DNA of 64,000 bases from Nevskia sp. (lineage in GTDB: Bacteria > Pseudomonadota > Gammaproteobacteria > Nevskiales > Nevskiaceae). Both the position numbers and the translations under genes were made by a program. The stretch covers positions 434,001 to 498,000 of the forward strand of contig NZ_JAKFUM010000003.1 of assembly GCF_021732705.1 (NCBI RefSeq), in the 5' to 3' direction. Every line of letters begins with the position of its first letter. The first letter of the stretch is position 1. The notes below the pieces were generated by a model. The model worked only from the letters and a program-made list of their open reading frames with translations. It ran no database searches and was not told the origin of the DNA. Positions 53,435 to 56,890 of the stretch are shown piece by piece.

Positions 53435-53998
53435 ATGTCCACACCGCAGTTCTTCGTCAACGCATCCGCCTTTCGTTCGTGGCTGGAAGCACACGCTGCA
53501 TCTCGAACCGAGCTGCTGGTCGGCTTCCACAAGGTTGGCTCCGGCCAGCCGAGCATGTCATGGCCTGAATCGGTAGACGAAGCCTTGTGCTTCGGATGGA
53601 TTGACGGTGTCCGCAAGCGCATCGACGATCATTCCTACTCGATCCGATTCACGCCGAGGAAGGCCGGCTCGATCTGGAGCGCCGTCAATATCGCGAAAGT
53701 CGAAAAGCTCGTGGCTGAAGGACGAATGACAGATGCCGGCATGAAGGCGTTTGCACGTCGCACCGCGCACAAGTCGAAGGTCTATGCCTATGAACAGGCA
53801 TCAACCGCTGAGTTGTCGCCCGAGGAGCTGCAGGAGTTCAAGCGGGATGCCGAAGCGTGGCACTACTTCGAGTCAACGCCGCCCAGCTACAGGCGCGTCA
53901 TCCTTCACTGGATTGCCTCTGCCAAGAAAACGGAAACGCGAGCCTCGCGTTTCTCGGCCCTGCTCTTGGCCTGCGCATCTCGCCAACGCCTGAGGTGA
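53435..53998 (+). CDS. YdeI/OmpD-associated family protein
   Basis: 187 residues from ATG 53435. FFVNASAFRSWLEAHAA, ELLVGFHKVGSGQPSMSWPESVDEALCFGWIDGVRKRIDDHSYSIRFTPRKAGSIWSAVN and VILHWIASAKKTETRASRF are the family blocks (the last is split here for length). The proteins are implicated in cationic-peptide or bacteriocin tolerance in enterics, but no mechanism is known. The C terminus is slightly shorter than usual. It is followed by 332 bp without a gene. Confidence 0.85.
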   Translation: MSTPQFFVNASAFRSWLEAHAASRTELLVGFHKVGSGQPSMSWPESVDEALCFGWIDGVRKRIDDHSYSIRFTPRKAGSIWSAVNIAKVEKLVAEGRMTDAGMKAFARRTAHKSKVYAYEQASTAELSPEELQEFKRDAEAWHYFESTPPSYRRVILHWIASAKKTETRASRFSALLLACASRQRLR

Positions 53999-54330
53999 GG
54001 ATGGAAGCCGCGGCGCAAGTGTTCGGTGGACATGTCTGGGCCCGTTCTTCTGTGCGCCCTTGCTGCTGATGGGGTCGGTCCGCGGTCGTGTACCCAACGT
54101 CGTCGAACATGTGGAAACAGGCAATCAGTCCAGCCTGCGCACCGTCATCCCAGGCACATCAAGCCACATCCACGCGTGCCGACATGCGTGCACTGAGGGC
54201 AATGCGTCGCGCCGTTCGTCGCCACTCACTTGACGGCTTCTGCTCCGCGGGAGCGTAATTTCGCCGTCAGCGGATAGACCGCGGACACTCGCCAACGGAT
54301 CGTTGGCAACGCGATAAGGAGCTTATCGCC
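53999..54330. other. Intergenic region holding the nadM leader
   Basis: A stretch of 332 bp with no coding sequence. Its last 60 bases carry a GGATAGACC motif and two perfect hairpins (separate entry). The rest shows no gene, repeat or terminator with a T run. Confidence 0.5.
54272..54330 (+). promoter_or_regulatory. nadM leader: GGATAGACC motif and two hairpins, the second presenting the Shine-Dalgarno
   Basis: GGATAGACC is at 54272-54280. The inverted repeat CCAACG-GAT-CGTTGG is at 54292-54306. GCGATAAG-GAG-CTTATCGC at 54311-54329 ends one base before the ATG. The SD (AAGGAG) lies at the top of this 8-bp stem and in its 3-base loop. The nadV start has the same plan, so the structure is probably functional in translation control, by a protein or a metabolite. 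Confidence 0.7.
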
Positions 54331-55392
54331 ATGCAGTTTGATCTACTCGTGTTCATCGGGCGATTTCAGCCCTTTCACAACGGCCACCTTGCTGTCGTCC
54401 GCCAAGGTCTTGCCGAAGGACAGCATGTCCTGGTGTTGGCCGGTTCGGCCGACCGCCCCCGCAATATCCGTGATCCGCTGACCGCGGACGAGCGCGCCCA
54501 GATGATTCTGGCGTGCCTCACACGTGAGGAGCAATCGCGCGTCTCCATCGCGCCGCTGCGTGACGCGACGTACAACGACGCGATCTGGATCCGCAACGTG
54601 CAGGCGGCGATCTTCAGCTGTCTTCAGACCATGTTTCCGGGCCGAAAGCCGGAAGGCCTGCGGATTGGTCTGGTGGGCCACAGCAAGGATCGCAGCTCGT
54701 ATTACTTGCGGCTGTTCCCGACCTGGGGCGCCGTCAATGTTGCGAACCACGAGGGCATCAGCGCGACCGATCTCCGGAAGCTGTACTTCACGCACCCGTT
54801 CGAGCAGGGAAGAGTACCTGCCGAAGTGGCCTTGATCTTCGAACAGCGCATGCCGAGCGCAAGTTACGAAAGCTTGCTGGCCTTCGCCCGCACGTCCGCT
54901 TACGCCGAACTCAAGGCGGAGCAGGATTTCGTCAATCGGTATCGCGAGCAGTTTGCCGGCCTCAAGTATCCGCCGACTTTCAACACGGTCGATGCCGTCG
55001 TTGTCCAGAGCGGCCACGTGCTGTTGATTCGCCGTGGCGCGCGCCCCGGTCTTGGCCAGCTTGCACTGCCGGGCGGTTTCATCCACGAAGACGAGACCGC
55101 ACTCGATGCCTGCCTTCGCGAACTGCGCGAGGAAACACGGCTCAAGATTCCCGAGCCGGTGCTGCGCGGCTCGTTGACGGATCAGTGCCAGTTCGACGAT
55201 CCGTTCCGGTCCGTCCGCGGTCGCACGTTCACCACGGCATTTCGCTTCGACCTCAGGCCCGACACCACCCTTCCGAAGGTCAAGGGCGGCGACGACGCCA
55301 GGGAAGCCTTCTGGGTGCCGCTGGCACAGGTACAGCCGGCAGACATGTACGAGGACCACTACTTCATCCTTCAGAAGTTGGTGGGCCTGTAG
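54331..55392 (+). CDS. nadM: Bifunctional nicotinamide-nucleotide adenylyltransferase/Nudix hydrolase
   Basis: 353 residues. Residues 1-~185 are the adenylyltransferase: FIGRFQPFHNGHLAVV with the nucleotide-binding HxGH-like site, and VGHSKDRSSYYLRLFP and ISATDLRKLYF further on. Residues ~205-353 are a Nudix domain with GGFIHEDETALDACLRELREE (Nudix box) and ADMYEDHYFILQ at the end. It turns NMN plus ATP into NAD+; the Nudix half cleaves ADP-ribose-type compounds. This layout matches the Synechocystis slr0787-type and phage enzymes. nadV follows 67 bp later, so nicotinamide can be turned into NAD+ by two adjacent gene products. Confidence 0.95.
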   Translation: MQFDLLVFIGRFQPFHNGHLAVVRQGLAEGQHVLVLAGSADRPRNIRDPLTADERAQMILACLTREEQSRVSIAPLRDATYNDAIWIRNVQAAIFSCLQTMFPGRKPEGLRIGLVGHSKDRSSYYLRLFPTWGAVNVANHEGISATDLRKLYFTHPFEQGRVPAEVALIFEQRMPSASYESLLAFARTSAYAELKAEQDFVNRYREQFAGLKYPPTFNTVDAVVVQSGHVLLIRRGARPGLGQLALPGGFIHEDETALDACLRELREETRLKIPEPVLRGSLTDQCQFDDPFRSVRGRTFTTAFRFDLRPDTTLPKVKGGDDAREAFWVPLAQVQPADMYEDHYFILQKLVGL

Positions 55393-55417
55393 CACGATAG
55401 CTTGTTCAATCCGTCGG

Positions 55418-55459
55418 GATAGACCCGGCGGCCATCCATCAACGTAGAGGAGTTCTACG
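55418..55459 (+). promoter_or_regulatory. nadV leader: GGATAGACC motif and Shine-Dalgarno hairpin
   Basis: GGATAGACC is at 55418-55426, followed by CCGGCGG. CGTAGA-GGAGT-TCTACG at 55443-55459 is a perfect 6-bp hairpin whose loop is the Shine-Dalgarno GGAG, and it touches the ATG at 55460. It repeats the arrangement seen before nadM although the arm sequences differ, which points to selection for the structure. Confidence 0.7.
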
Positions 55460-56890
55460 ATGACGCTTCACGATCGCAAGAATCTGATTCTCAACACCGA
55501 CAGTTACAAGCTGAGCCACTTCCTCCAGTATCCCGAGGGCACGGAGGTCATCAACAGCTACATCGAGCCGCGTGGCGGCGGCCTGAAGGACGTCGTCTTC
55601 TTCGGCCTTCAGGCGTTCGTCAAGGCGTATCTGAGCCAGCCCATCACGCGGGCGGCCATCGACGAGGCCGAGGAACTGGCGATGGCGCATGTCGGCTACT
55701 TCAACCGGGCTGGCTGGGAACGGATACTCGAAAGGCACGAGGGCTTCCTGCCCCTGGAGATCGAGGCGGTTCCCGAAGGTACCGTGCTCGACACCCGCAT
55801 TCCCGTGGTGCAGATTCGGAACAGCGATCCCACGTTGCCGTGGCTGCCGAGCTACCTCGAAACGGCATTGCTGCGTGCCGTCTGGTACCCGACCACCGTT
55901 GCCAGCCTGAGCTTTGCCTGCAAGAAGGAATTGCGGCGATATCTCGACGAGACCAGTGATGATCCGGCCGCCGCGCTGCCGTTCCAGCTGCATGACTTTG
56001 GTGCGCGCGGCGCAGCCTCCGAGGAGGCGGCCGGCCTTGGCGGCGCCGGCCATCTGTTGAACTTCCTCGGCACGGACACGCTTGCGGCGCTGTCGGTCGC
56101 GCGAGAGTTCTACGACGAGCCGCTGGCCGGTTTCAGCATTCCGGCCAGCGAGCACAGCACGATGACCAGCTGGGGCAAGCCGGGCGAAGCCGAGGCCTAT
56201 CGCAACATGATCGAGCGCTTCGCCGGGCCCGGGAAGATCGTCGCTTTCGTGGTCGACAGCTATGACCTGTGGAACGCGGTCGATCACATCGTTGGCGTCG
56301 AACTCAAGTCGCTGATCGAAAGCACCGGCGGCCGCGTCGTGATCCGTCCGGACAGCGGCGATCCGATCGCCGTGCTTCCGCGCTTGATCGAGCACCTGAT
56401 GAAGCGCTTCGGCCATCGCGTGAACGGGAAGGGCTATCGCGTGCTGCCGGACTTCATCCGCGTCATTCAGGGTGATGGCGTCAATCTGGAGAGCCTGCCC
56501 CGGATTCTCGAAGCGCTGAAAATTCGCGGTATCGCCACCGAAAATGCCGCATTCGGCATGGGCGGTGGCCTGTTGCAGAAGGTTGATCGAGACACGATGA
56601 AGTGGGCGATGAAGGCCAGTCAGGCCGTGATCAACGGTCAGCCGCGCGACATCTTCAAGGACCCGGTGACGGATCCCGGCAAGCGCAGCAAGGCGGGACG
56701 CTGGGCCGTGGTACGCAAGGCCAATGGCTATGAGGGTGTACGAATCGAGGAACTGGCCGGCCGTGAAAATCTGCTTCGGCCGGTATTCCGGAATGGCAGG
56801 CTGCTGGTCGATGATCGGTTCGCCGAGCTGCGGACACGTACGGCGGCCGAGTTCGAACGGCTGATCACCGCCCCGCACGCTGGCCACTGA
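55460..56890 (+). CDS. nadV: Nicotinamide phosphoribosyltransferase
   Basis: 476 residues. NLILNTDSYKLSHFLQYPEGTEVINSYIEPRGG at the N terminus, HDFGARGAASEEAAGLGGAGHL, SIPASEHSTMTSWGKPGEAEAY and VVIRPDSGDP mark the NadV/NAMPT branch rather than PncB. It joins nicotinamide and PRPP to NMN, so it salvages nicotinamide without a deamidase. It works with the product of nadM just upstream. In phages the same pair forms an NAD+ reconstitution pathway that defeats NAD-depleting defence; whether this chromosomal pair has a related role is open. Confidence 0.95.
   Translation: MTLHDRKNLILNTDSYKLSHFLQYPEGTEVINSYIEPRGGGLKDVVFFGLQAFVKAYLSQPITRAAIDEAEELAMAHVGYFNRAGWERILERHEGFLPLEIEAVPEGTVLDTRIPVVQIRNSDPTLPWLPSYLETALLRAVWYPTTVASLSFACKKELRRYLDETSDDPAAALPFQLHDFGARGAASEEAAGLGGAGHLLNFLGTDTLAALSVAREFYDEPLAGFSIPASEHSTMTSWGKPGEAEAYRNMIERFAGPGKIVAFVVDSYDLWNAVDHIVGVELKSLIESTGGRVVIRPDSGDPIAVLPRLIEHLMKRFGHRVNGKGYRVLPDFIRVIQGDGVNLESLPRILEALKIRGIATENAAFGMGGGLLQKVDRDTMKWAMKASQAVINGQPRDIFKDPVTDPGKRSKAGRWAVVRKANGYEGVRIEELAGRENLLRPVFRNGRLLVDDRFAELRTRTAAEFERLITAPHAGH

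Follow-up and report, generated by a model that had tools for sequence, protein, structure and literature searches.

Why should two neighbouring genes of nicotinamide salvage each carry the Shine-Dalgarno (SD) sequence in the loop of a perfect hairpin that ends at the start codon? The question is raised by a 64,000-nucleotide (nt) stretch of a Nevskia sp. genome (contig NZ_JAKFUM010000003.1, positions 434,001 to 498,000), hereafter the window, in which nadM and nadV follow one another on the forward strand. nadM (54331..55392, +) encodes a 353-amino acid (aa) bifunctional nicotinamide mononucleotide (NMN) adenylyltransferase/Nudix hydrolase (NCBIfam NF003786, 472.5 bits against a cutoff of 397; Pfam CTP_transf_like and NUDIX), and nadV (55460..56890, +) a 476-aa nicotinamide phosphoribosyltransferase of the NAMPT type (NCBIfam NF006629, 617 bits; Pfam NAMPT_N and NAPRTase; PHROG 448). 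Based on the leaders of these genes and of their relatives, we propose that the hairpins form a cis-acting RNA operator of nicotinamide adenine dinucleotide (NAD+) salvage. The element exists, is largely confined to NAD-salvage genes and has apparently not been described before, and the protein that reads it may be NadM itself.

What does the element look like? The hairpin at the start codon, P2, is GCGATAA[GGAGC]TTATCGC at nadM (54311..54329, +; loops are bracketed) and CGTAGA[GGAGT]TCTACG at nadV (55443..55459, +). In both the loop is the SD sequence; a single C separates P2 from the ATG at 54331, and the nadV hairpin abuts the ATG at 55460. An initial annotation of the window had described these two SD hairpins, and both the sequence and a hairpin scan bear it out; the GAG loop that it gave for nadM belongs to the same hairpin, which in our pentaloop writing, GGAGC, has one G-C pair fewer. 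Upstream lies a second hairpin, P1. At nadM (54266..54286, +) it has the core GCGG[ATAGA]CCGC (54270-54282) with a GTC/GAC extension beyond one mismatch, and at nadV (55411..55431, +) it reads CCGTCGGG[ATAGA]CCCGGCGG. The word GGATAGACC, previously reported as common to both leaders, is indeed present (54272-54280 and 55417-55425); it is more than a shared word, being in each case the loop and inner stem of P1, a hairpin that had been overlooked. The nadM leader holds in addition a middle pentaloop hairpin, GCCAAC[GGATC]GTTGGC (54291..54307, +), the further perfect hairpin mentioned in the annotation, which folding draws with one extra pair and a 3-nt loop. Its counterpart in a relative (L032) is GCCAAC[GGAGC]GTTGGC, with GGAGC instead of GGATC. 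When the two leaders are folded as RNA, these hairpins make up the predicted structure of lowest energy (z -2.70 and -2.36). A loose scan of both strands of the window for perfect SD-like hairpins beside ATG or GTG gave five places (eight rows), and a GGAG loop at nadM and nadV only; the annotation had likewise noted the design at none of the other starts it looked at. A transcription terminator was considered and rejected, as the two leaders contain no terminator-like site.

Is this a functional structure? We regard this as almost certain, and the pattern of change between homologous leaders carries the conclusion. Loci for comparison came from genomes and viral contigs, with nadV and nadM as queries, and from phage records and plasmids, with nadV as query. 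Sixteen of 48 leaders, picked for equal linker and both hairpins, make up alignment A1, from which a covariance model, R1, was built without any window sequence; two rounds of enlargement led to R2 (56 leaders) and R3 (75 leaders, 71 distinct). In A1, 96.9% of cells are paired against 56.7% after shuffling, with a covariation score of 1.084 against 0.253. In R3, 96.3% of cells are paired (50.7% shuffled), double-changed cells number 399 (120.6 shuffled), and the covariation score is 1.085, compared with 0.216 in shuffled alignments and at most 0.180 when the structure is slid by one column. Compensatory changes thus keep the helices, as expected of a structured RNA regulator; covariation in homologous leaders, which the annotation had proposed as a check, is abundant by these shuffle-tested pair counts. 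R1 matched the window nadV leader (55413-55459, E 0.0017, 718 kb searched), a match that spans P2 and includes much of P1, and R2 matched the nadM leader (54268-54328, E 0.0083), which lies outside the R2 training set. Run on the 4.5 Mb genome to which the window belongs, at E up to 10, R2 returned the nadV leader, a member of its training set, as sole match and did not list the nadM leader.

The same data dispose of a trivial explanation, namely chance or the common ancestry of a copied repeat. Identical arms do occur among near relatives (L001, L002 and L032). Across lineages, however, and between nadM and nadV of the window, the arms differ strongly while the pairing is kept: CTTCAA/TTGAAG in Caulobacterales and Hellea, TCAGTAA/TTACTGA in two genomes of the window's class, and GCAAAA/TTTTGC, TTTAGA/TCTAAA or AATAGA/TCTATT in viral contigs. 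The pair counts refute the copied repeat, whose probability we put next to nil, and the view that structure rather than a repeat is shared, already expressed in the annotation, stands. A DNA operator was also considered and rejected, since arms that differ within one genome and a loop motif on the sense strand would hardly suit one. NrtR is a repressor that acts on DNA. It likewise controls NAD genes, according to PMC8865458; the signal described here, with its divergent arms and sense-strand loops, looks instead like RNA. The NrtR model NF050029 gives a weak match to the Nudix part of NadM (residues 195-348, E 9.1e-06), far below its cutoff.

What is kept if the arms are free to change? For the anatomy set, P2 was defined as a stem of at least 5 base pairs (bp) with a pentaloop containing GGA or GGG and an end -3 to +6 nt from the start. 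Among the 109 hairpin-bearing leaders the stems measure 5-7 bp and the 3' end falls -2 to +4 nt relative to the start; the loop is GGAGT in 75, GGAGA in 13, GGAGC in 11 and another in 10, and the closing pair is A-T in 89 (A-U in 66 of the 71 distinct leaders of the R3 alignment). P1 of at least 5 bp is present in 70 leaders, with loops ATAGA (21), AGAGA (19), AGTGA (7), GGAGT (5), GGGGT (4) and others (14), the choice of P1 among several possible hairpins having favoured A..GA and GG.GT loops. The linker between P1 and P2 is 2-13 nt in 64 of these 70 leaders and 17-38 nt in the remaining 6. The kept features are therefore the loop letters (purine first, often G fourth) and the stem length and place of P2, not the arm sequence, and the loops themselves vary among lineages.

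How specific is the arrangement? When one rule, a GGAGN hairpin of at least 5 bp at the start, was applied to all open reading frames (ORFs) of the fetched loci, it was satisfied by 32 of 118 nadM and 30 of 137 nadV ORFs against 4 of 1316 others, namely a pnuC, a nadM fragment, a gene for a 213-aa protein and one chance case. A wider control took ORFs with an SD-like motif and applied a wide P2 rule and a P1 rule, both of which postdate the sight of the leaders, to rows that are related to each other: P2 was found at 104 of 224 nadM, nadV or pnuC starts versus 20 of 945 others, P1 at 75 of 224 versus 5 of 945, and both hairpins at 59 of 224 versus 1 of 945, the one again being the 213-aa gene. 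The two-hairpin arrangement is largely specific to NAD-salvage genes. These counts bear on the simplest functional account, in which no trans-acting factor is involved, P2 simply tunes translation or protects the mRNA from RNase, and P1 is a stabiliser in its own right. Placing the SD in a small hairpin is enough to lower initiation, hairpins at the 5' end can protect mRNA, and P2-like hairpins do turn up at some other starts. However, other genes in these loci almost never have the pair of hairpins, and tuning needs no P1 loops of the AUAGA, AGAGA or AGUGA kind, which are concentrated at nad starts; we judge this account very unlikely.

pnuC emerges as a third target, in five viral records (L074/L276, L271 = G444, L267, L280 and L255). 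Its identity is given by the Pfam family NMN_transporter for L074 and L255 and by BLAST for L267, L271, L276 (the record of L074) and L280; the L255 leader has P2 only. A gene-blind search of viral contigs with the 17-mer GCAAAAGGAGTTTTTGC found 40 places, which precede nadM (15), nadV (4), pnuC (4, by BLAST), the 213-aa gene (4), five other ORFs, one of which, in L255, is pnuC by Pfam, and no ORF (8). A search with TTTAGAGGAGTTCTAAA gave 12 places (7 nadV, 1 nadM, 2 other, 2 without ORF), and a third pattern one place with no ORF behind it. Among ten new loci seeded with pnuC, four leaders (L229, L230, L231 and L236) show no element by eye.

The element is found in many phages and in some plasmids and bacteria, before nadM, nadV and pnuC; the scope first given to it was too small, missing both the third target and the wide occurrence in phages. 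In the first scan, a GGAGN-loop hairpin of at least 4 bp abutted the start at 95 of 204 nadM or nadV places, a count in which copies of a locus and weak nadM matches remain. Inspection by eye covered twelve named records of phages and plasmids. Both hairpins stand before nadM and nadV in phages DSS3_MAL1, RcXuper, LucasX (P2 loop GGAAC) and vB_OspM_OC, and DLP_6 has both at nadM and a 4-bp P2 at nadV. On a Methylosinus trichosporium OB3b plasmid the nadM element is clear and that of nadV has a larger or smaller loop; on a Novosphingobium ES2-1 plasmid nadV is clear and nadM irregular. ACP17 has a 4-bp P2 at nadV and BcepSauron a variant with smaller loops; by eye the element was not seen in Rhizobium phage RHph_X66, a Shinella plasmid or Vibrio phage CZ01. 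A model scan of 37 whole viral records gave a match at E up to 0.5 in 28, and the strong matches that were traced lie at nadM, nadV and pnuC and at genes for the 213-aa and a 90-aa protein, the last two near nadM. Three matches, L095:3740-3770 and L092:6381-6423 (no ORF found behind) and one in L204, look like chance. Across 369 genomes of the window's class, R3 reported the window's own genome and one weak match (G087, 24 bits). The silence elsewhere is uninformative because two genomes apparently in that draw, G362 and G131, went unreported even though their nadM leaders (L144 and L145) carry the element. Four viral records of 176-180 kb (L103, L104, L105 and L124) have a P2-like hairpin, AACGT[GGAGC]ACGTT, before nadM, with nadV far from nadM where this was searched (L103-L105). 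Within the window's family nadV is patchy, occurring in 8 of 58 genomes; the closest named relative of the window gene is that of Hydrocarboniphaga (Nevskiaceae), at 87% identity. In L032 (genome G007), a relative of the window genome, a protein search places one TGA inside the nadV match, and the leader element is intact.

Has such an element been described before? Rfam 15 (4227 families, inclusion of both NAD+ riboswitch families unconfirmed) gave no match up to E 5 in 53900-55700 and, at gathering thresholds over the whole window, nothing except a tRNA. Across 16 loci with the element, each about 3 kb long, it gave eight matches at E up to 1, all in a tRNA stretch of L190 and none at the element. 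No published description was found among the matches listed by a literature search, outside which most subscription journals and all bioRxiv preprints lie.

How might the element work? An SD sequence in the P2 loop beside the ATG suggests translational control. We propose that P2 and, across a short variable linker, P1 (three hairpins at the window nadM) would act as one operator. As long as P2 (6-7 bp) is free, the ribosome would open it. A protein that reads the loops would bind P1 and P2 jointly, clamp P2 shut and block the 30S subunit. That a bound protein acts on the element is probable. The variable linker and the little that is kept beyond the loops and the P2 closing pair favour a protein over a small molecule as partner; loops and a P2 place that are fixed while the arms are free would be the signature of an RNA-binding protein that occludes the start, and a ligand pocket would need a fixed geometry. 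The annotation had left the choice between a protein and direct sensing of NAD+ or nicotinamide; the first is better supported, also by the company of NadM described below, and the second less likely.

Direct sensing would mean a riboswitch, with the two hairpins as binding site for NAD+, NMN, nicotinamide or a similar compound, which would stabilise P2. All identified targets are NAD-salvage genes, and two NAD+ riboswitch classes are known before other genes, one of which, NAD+-II, precedes pnuC and is proposed to act by blocking the ribosome-binding site (passages of PMC7749635 and PMC8632094). Against this stand the varying linker, the loops that differ by lineage with little conservation beyond two pentaloops and a closing pair, and the lack of complementarity between the two loops; a kissing interaction of AUAGA with GGAGU was rejected by eye for the same reason. 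Moreover, a ligand common to all cells does not explain why the element is missing from all 30 nadV genomes or records that lack NadM. We therefore consider a riboswitch unlikely. The known classes also look different. The NAD+-II (pnuC) motif resembles the present element in its gene and in having the ribosome-binding site within the predicted switch; as far as these sources describe it, it has an internal bulge between two stems, a possible pseudoknot and a range limited to Streptococcus, whereas the element here consists of two simple hairpins with no Rfam match. The NAD+-I (nadA) motif shares tandem domains and NAD+ genes with it, but is built of bulged stem-loops with an ACANCCCC bulge (PMC7297122), while the present hairpins have no bulges. 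A word search of the NAD+-II paper and of a 26-genome survey found none of nadM, nadV or phage in their main text.

If a protein is the partner, which one? NadM is the best candidate because the element occurs together with it. In the nadV-seeded set, with NadM sought in whole genomes or records, P2 is present in 8 of the 9 NadM-encoding members and in 0 of the 30 without NadM; four of the eight also have a P1 of at least 5 bp, and the sole exception is Nevskia L005. This count left out 11 loci that were partial, duplicate or lacking in NadM status (L017, L022, L023, L024, L026, L027, L028, L049, L057, L058 and L060) and dropped three whose alignment starts late (L053, L054 and L059); L037 was negative under the GGAGN rule and became positive once GGA, GGG and AGG loops were accepted, a change made alike in every row, and L018 scores weakly with the model (15.3 bits, E 0.37). 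In the reverse direction, a hairpin before nadV or pnuC led to seven new viral records, all seven of which encode NadM, compared with only 2 of 21 nadV-seeded viral records. Ten hairpin-found records were searched for NadM; L258, L267 and L275, where the hairpin is at nadM itself, stand outside the seven, the NadM of L277 is in two pieces, and the count excludes 15 records in which no NAD gene follows the bare 17- or 18-mer of the hairpin as well as records already known to bear NadM. The element is thus restricted to NadM-encoding records in these samples, which are small and related and may include fragments. A survey that reports NadV in every phage with NadM (passages of PMC9503650) fits with a joint NadM and NadV pathway.

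The structured site overlaps the initiation region of nadM's own mRNA, as would be expected of an autogenous operator. Excess NadM would, in our proposal, repress the nadM, nadV and pnuC mRNAs, perhaps tuned by NAD+ or ADP-ribose bound to NadM. We put the probability that the bound protein is NadM at roughly 50%. Repression rather than activation, ligand sensing and a role in infection would be further steps of this proposal. Its fullest form, in which NadM is a sequence-specific RNA-binding repressor, the Nudix domain senses NAD+ or ADP-ribose and phages dose a NAD+-rebuilding, anti-immunity pathway by translational feedback, is tentative and rather less likely than not.

Might NadM be a mere passenger of the cassette, the loops being read by another RNA-binding protein, such as NadV or a host protein? 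The anatomy fits any loop-reader with two binding sites, and nadM and nadV are often neighbours, so that their co-occurrence with the element is partly positional. Yet nadV without NadM never has the element (0 of 30), and no obvious regulator gene is found among the four window neighbours scanned (cupin, OmdA, AHSA1-like and a weak HEAT match). NadV in particular may be weakly disfavoured by two possibly incomplete records with no NadV match: G451 (159 kb), where the element precedes a small gene adjoining nadM, and G454 (251 kb), where a weak element at nadM (4-bp P2) was found in one model search and not in another. For a host factor to be the reader, Nevskiaceae, Caulobacterales, Psychrobacter and the hosts of diverse phages would all need to possess it. 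CsrA/RsmA sites do resemble the element as tandem hairpins, one with the SD in its loop. CsrA, however, needs GGA in the loops, in both for a leader of that kind, whereas 47 of the 70 P1 loops are AUAGA, AGAGA or AGUGA, mostly of the form A-N-N-G-A and without GGA, and this identity was rejected. Overall we hold a reader other than NadM to be somewhat unlikely.

Several observations weigh against autogenous control by NadM or against the evidence for the element. For 34 of 90 distinct NadM proteins, no P2-type hairpin was found at nadM or nadV in the fetched locus, and the 56 with a hairpin include doubtful ones (L143, L083 and the nadM hairpin of L088). Several NadM-bearing genomes, among them Nevskia L005, RHph_X66 and the Shinella plasmid, have no recognisable element. 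Four leaders (L103, L104, L105 and L124), near-copies of one another, have P2 without P1. NadM and the element may simply be inherited as one cassette. P2-like hairpins under the wide rule also occur outside NAD genes, at the 20 of 945 starts given above. R2 and R3 were fitted to their own structure, and detection rules were set once leaders had been seen. In R3, two of the five measures stay within shuffling: two-sided change affects 12 of 12 pairs, a value equalled by 85 of 500 shuffles, and the 46 further pair types are reached by 147 of 500; these two measures do not discriminate because so many rows are variable. Finally, we know of no report of NadM binding RNA.

Does NadM itself bear traces of such a function? 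On a tree of NadM made by a quick method (89 rows, 59 with the element), the element changes state 15 times, compared with a mean of 25.2 and a minimum of 20 in 200 label shuffles; it is clustered, yet has been gained or lost many times. A comparison of NadM from 33 element and 19 non-element representatives (seven rows were excluded before the split) found no basic residue confined to carriers. Certain Nudix-domain positions are better kept in carriers (H229, 97 versus 58%; K318 as K or R, 94 versus 58%), ancestry not being separated in these figures, and such differences may serve as a lead only.

The proposed mechanism is akin to known autogenous translational operators, those of thymidylate synthase, phage T4 gp32 and bacterial ribosomal proteins, where a protein with another main job blocks translation of its own mRNA. 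Human thymidylate synthase, free of ligand, stabilises a hairpin that sequesters the start codon (PMC4274661; also PMC535899 and PMC10931766). Unlike these operators, the element consists of tandem pentaloop hairpins that recur at two or three genes of one pathway, in phages as well as bacteria, and its binder is putative.

What are the implications of such an element? It seems to form a class of cis-regulatory RNA not described before, spread over phages, plasmids and bacteria and tied to a single pathway, from nicotinamide to NAD+; if our proposal is true, a metabolic enzyme would become an RNA-binding regulator. To our knowledge, no dedicated translational control of phage NAD+ rebuilding has been described. 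One such rebuilding pathway, NARP2, combines NAMPT and NMNAT. Rebuilding of NAD+ by phages, through NARP1 and NARP2, is a counter-defence to NAD+-depleting immunity (passages of PMC11984713 and PMC12028318). The covariance model offers a direct route to more members of the regulon, with the family of the 213-aa phage protein as a candidate.

The 213-aa protein (L067:2268-2909) belongs to PHROG 1843, and the L067 copy has no Pfam match. Its gene carries both hairpins as at nadM in L067, L253, L256 and L272, which have a common protein start, and P2 in L258, where the protein is a 214-aa relative; the family may likewise belong to the NAD pathway or take part in its control. A 90-aa protein (L101:2721-2990, PHROG 5321) is encoded directly before nadM, and its gene has the element (E 0.0012 with R1). 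On a 518 kb viral contig (L280:7434-7638), two P2 17-mers lie 188 bases apart, one before a 50-aa ORF and one before pnuC. In the phage contig L190 (613-1488), a dense tRNA array precedes nadM and contains a match to the selenocysteine tRNA family at 42.8 bits, just below the gathering score of 47.

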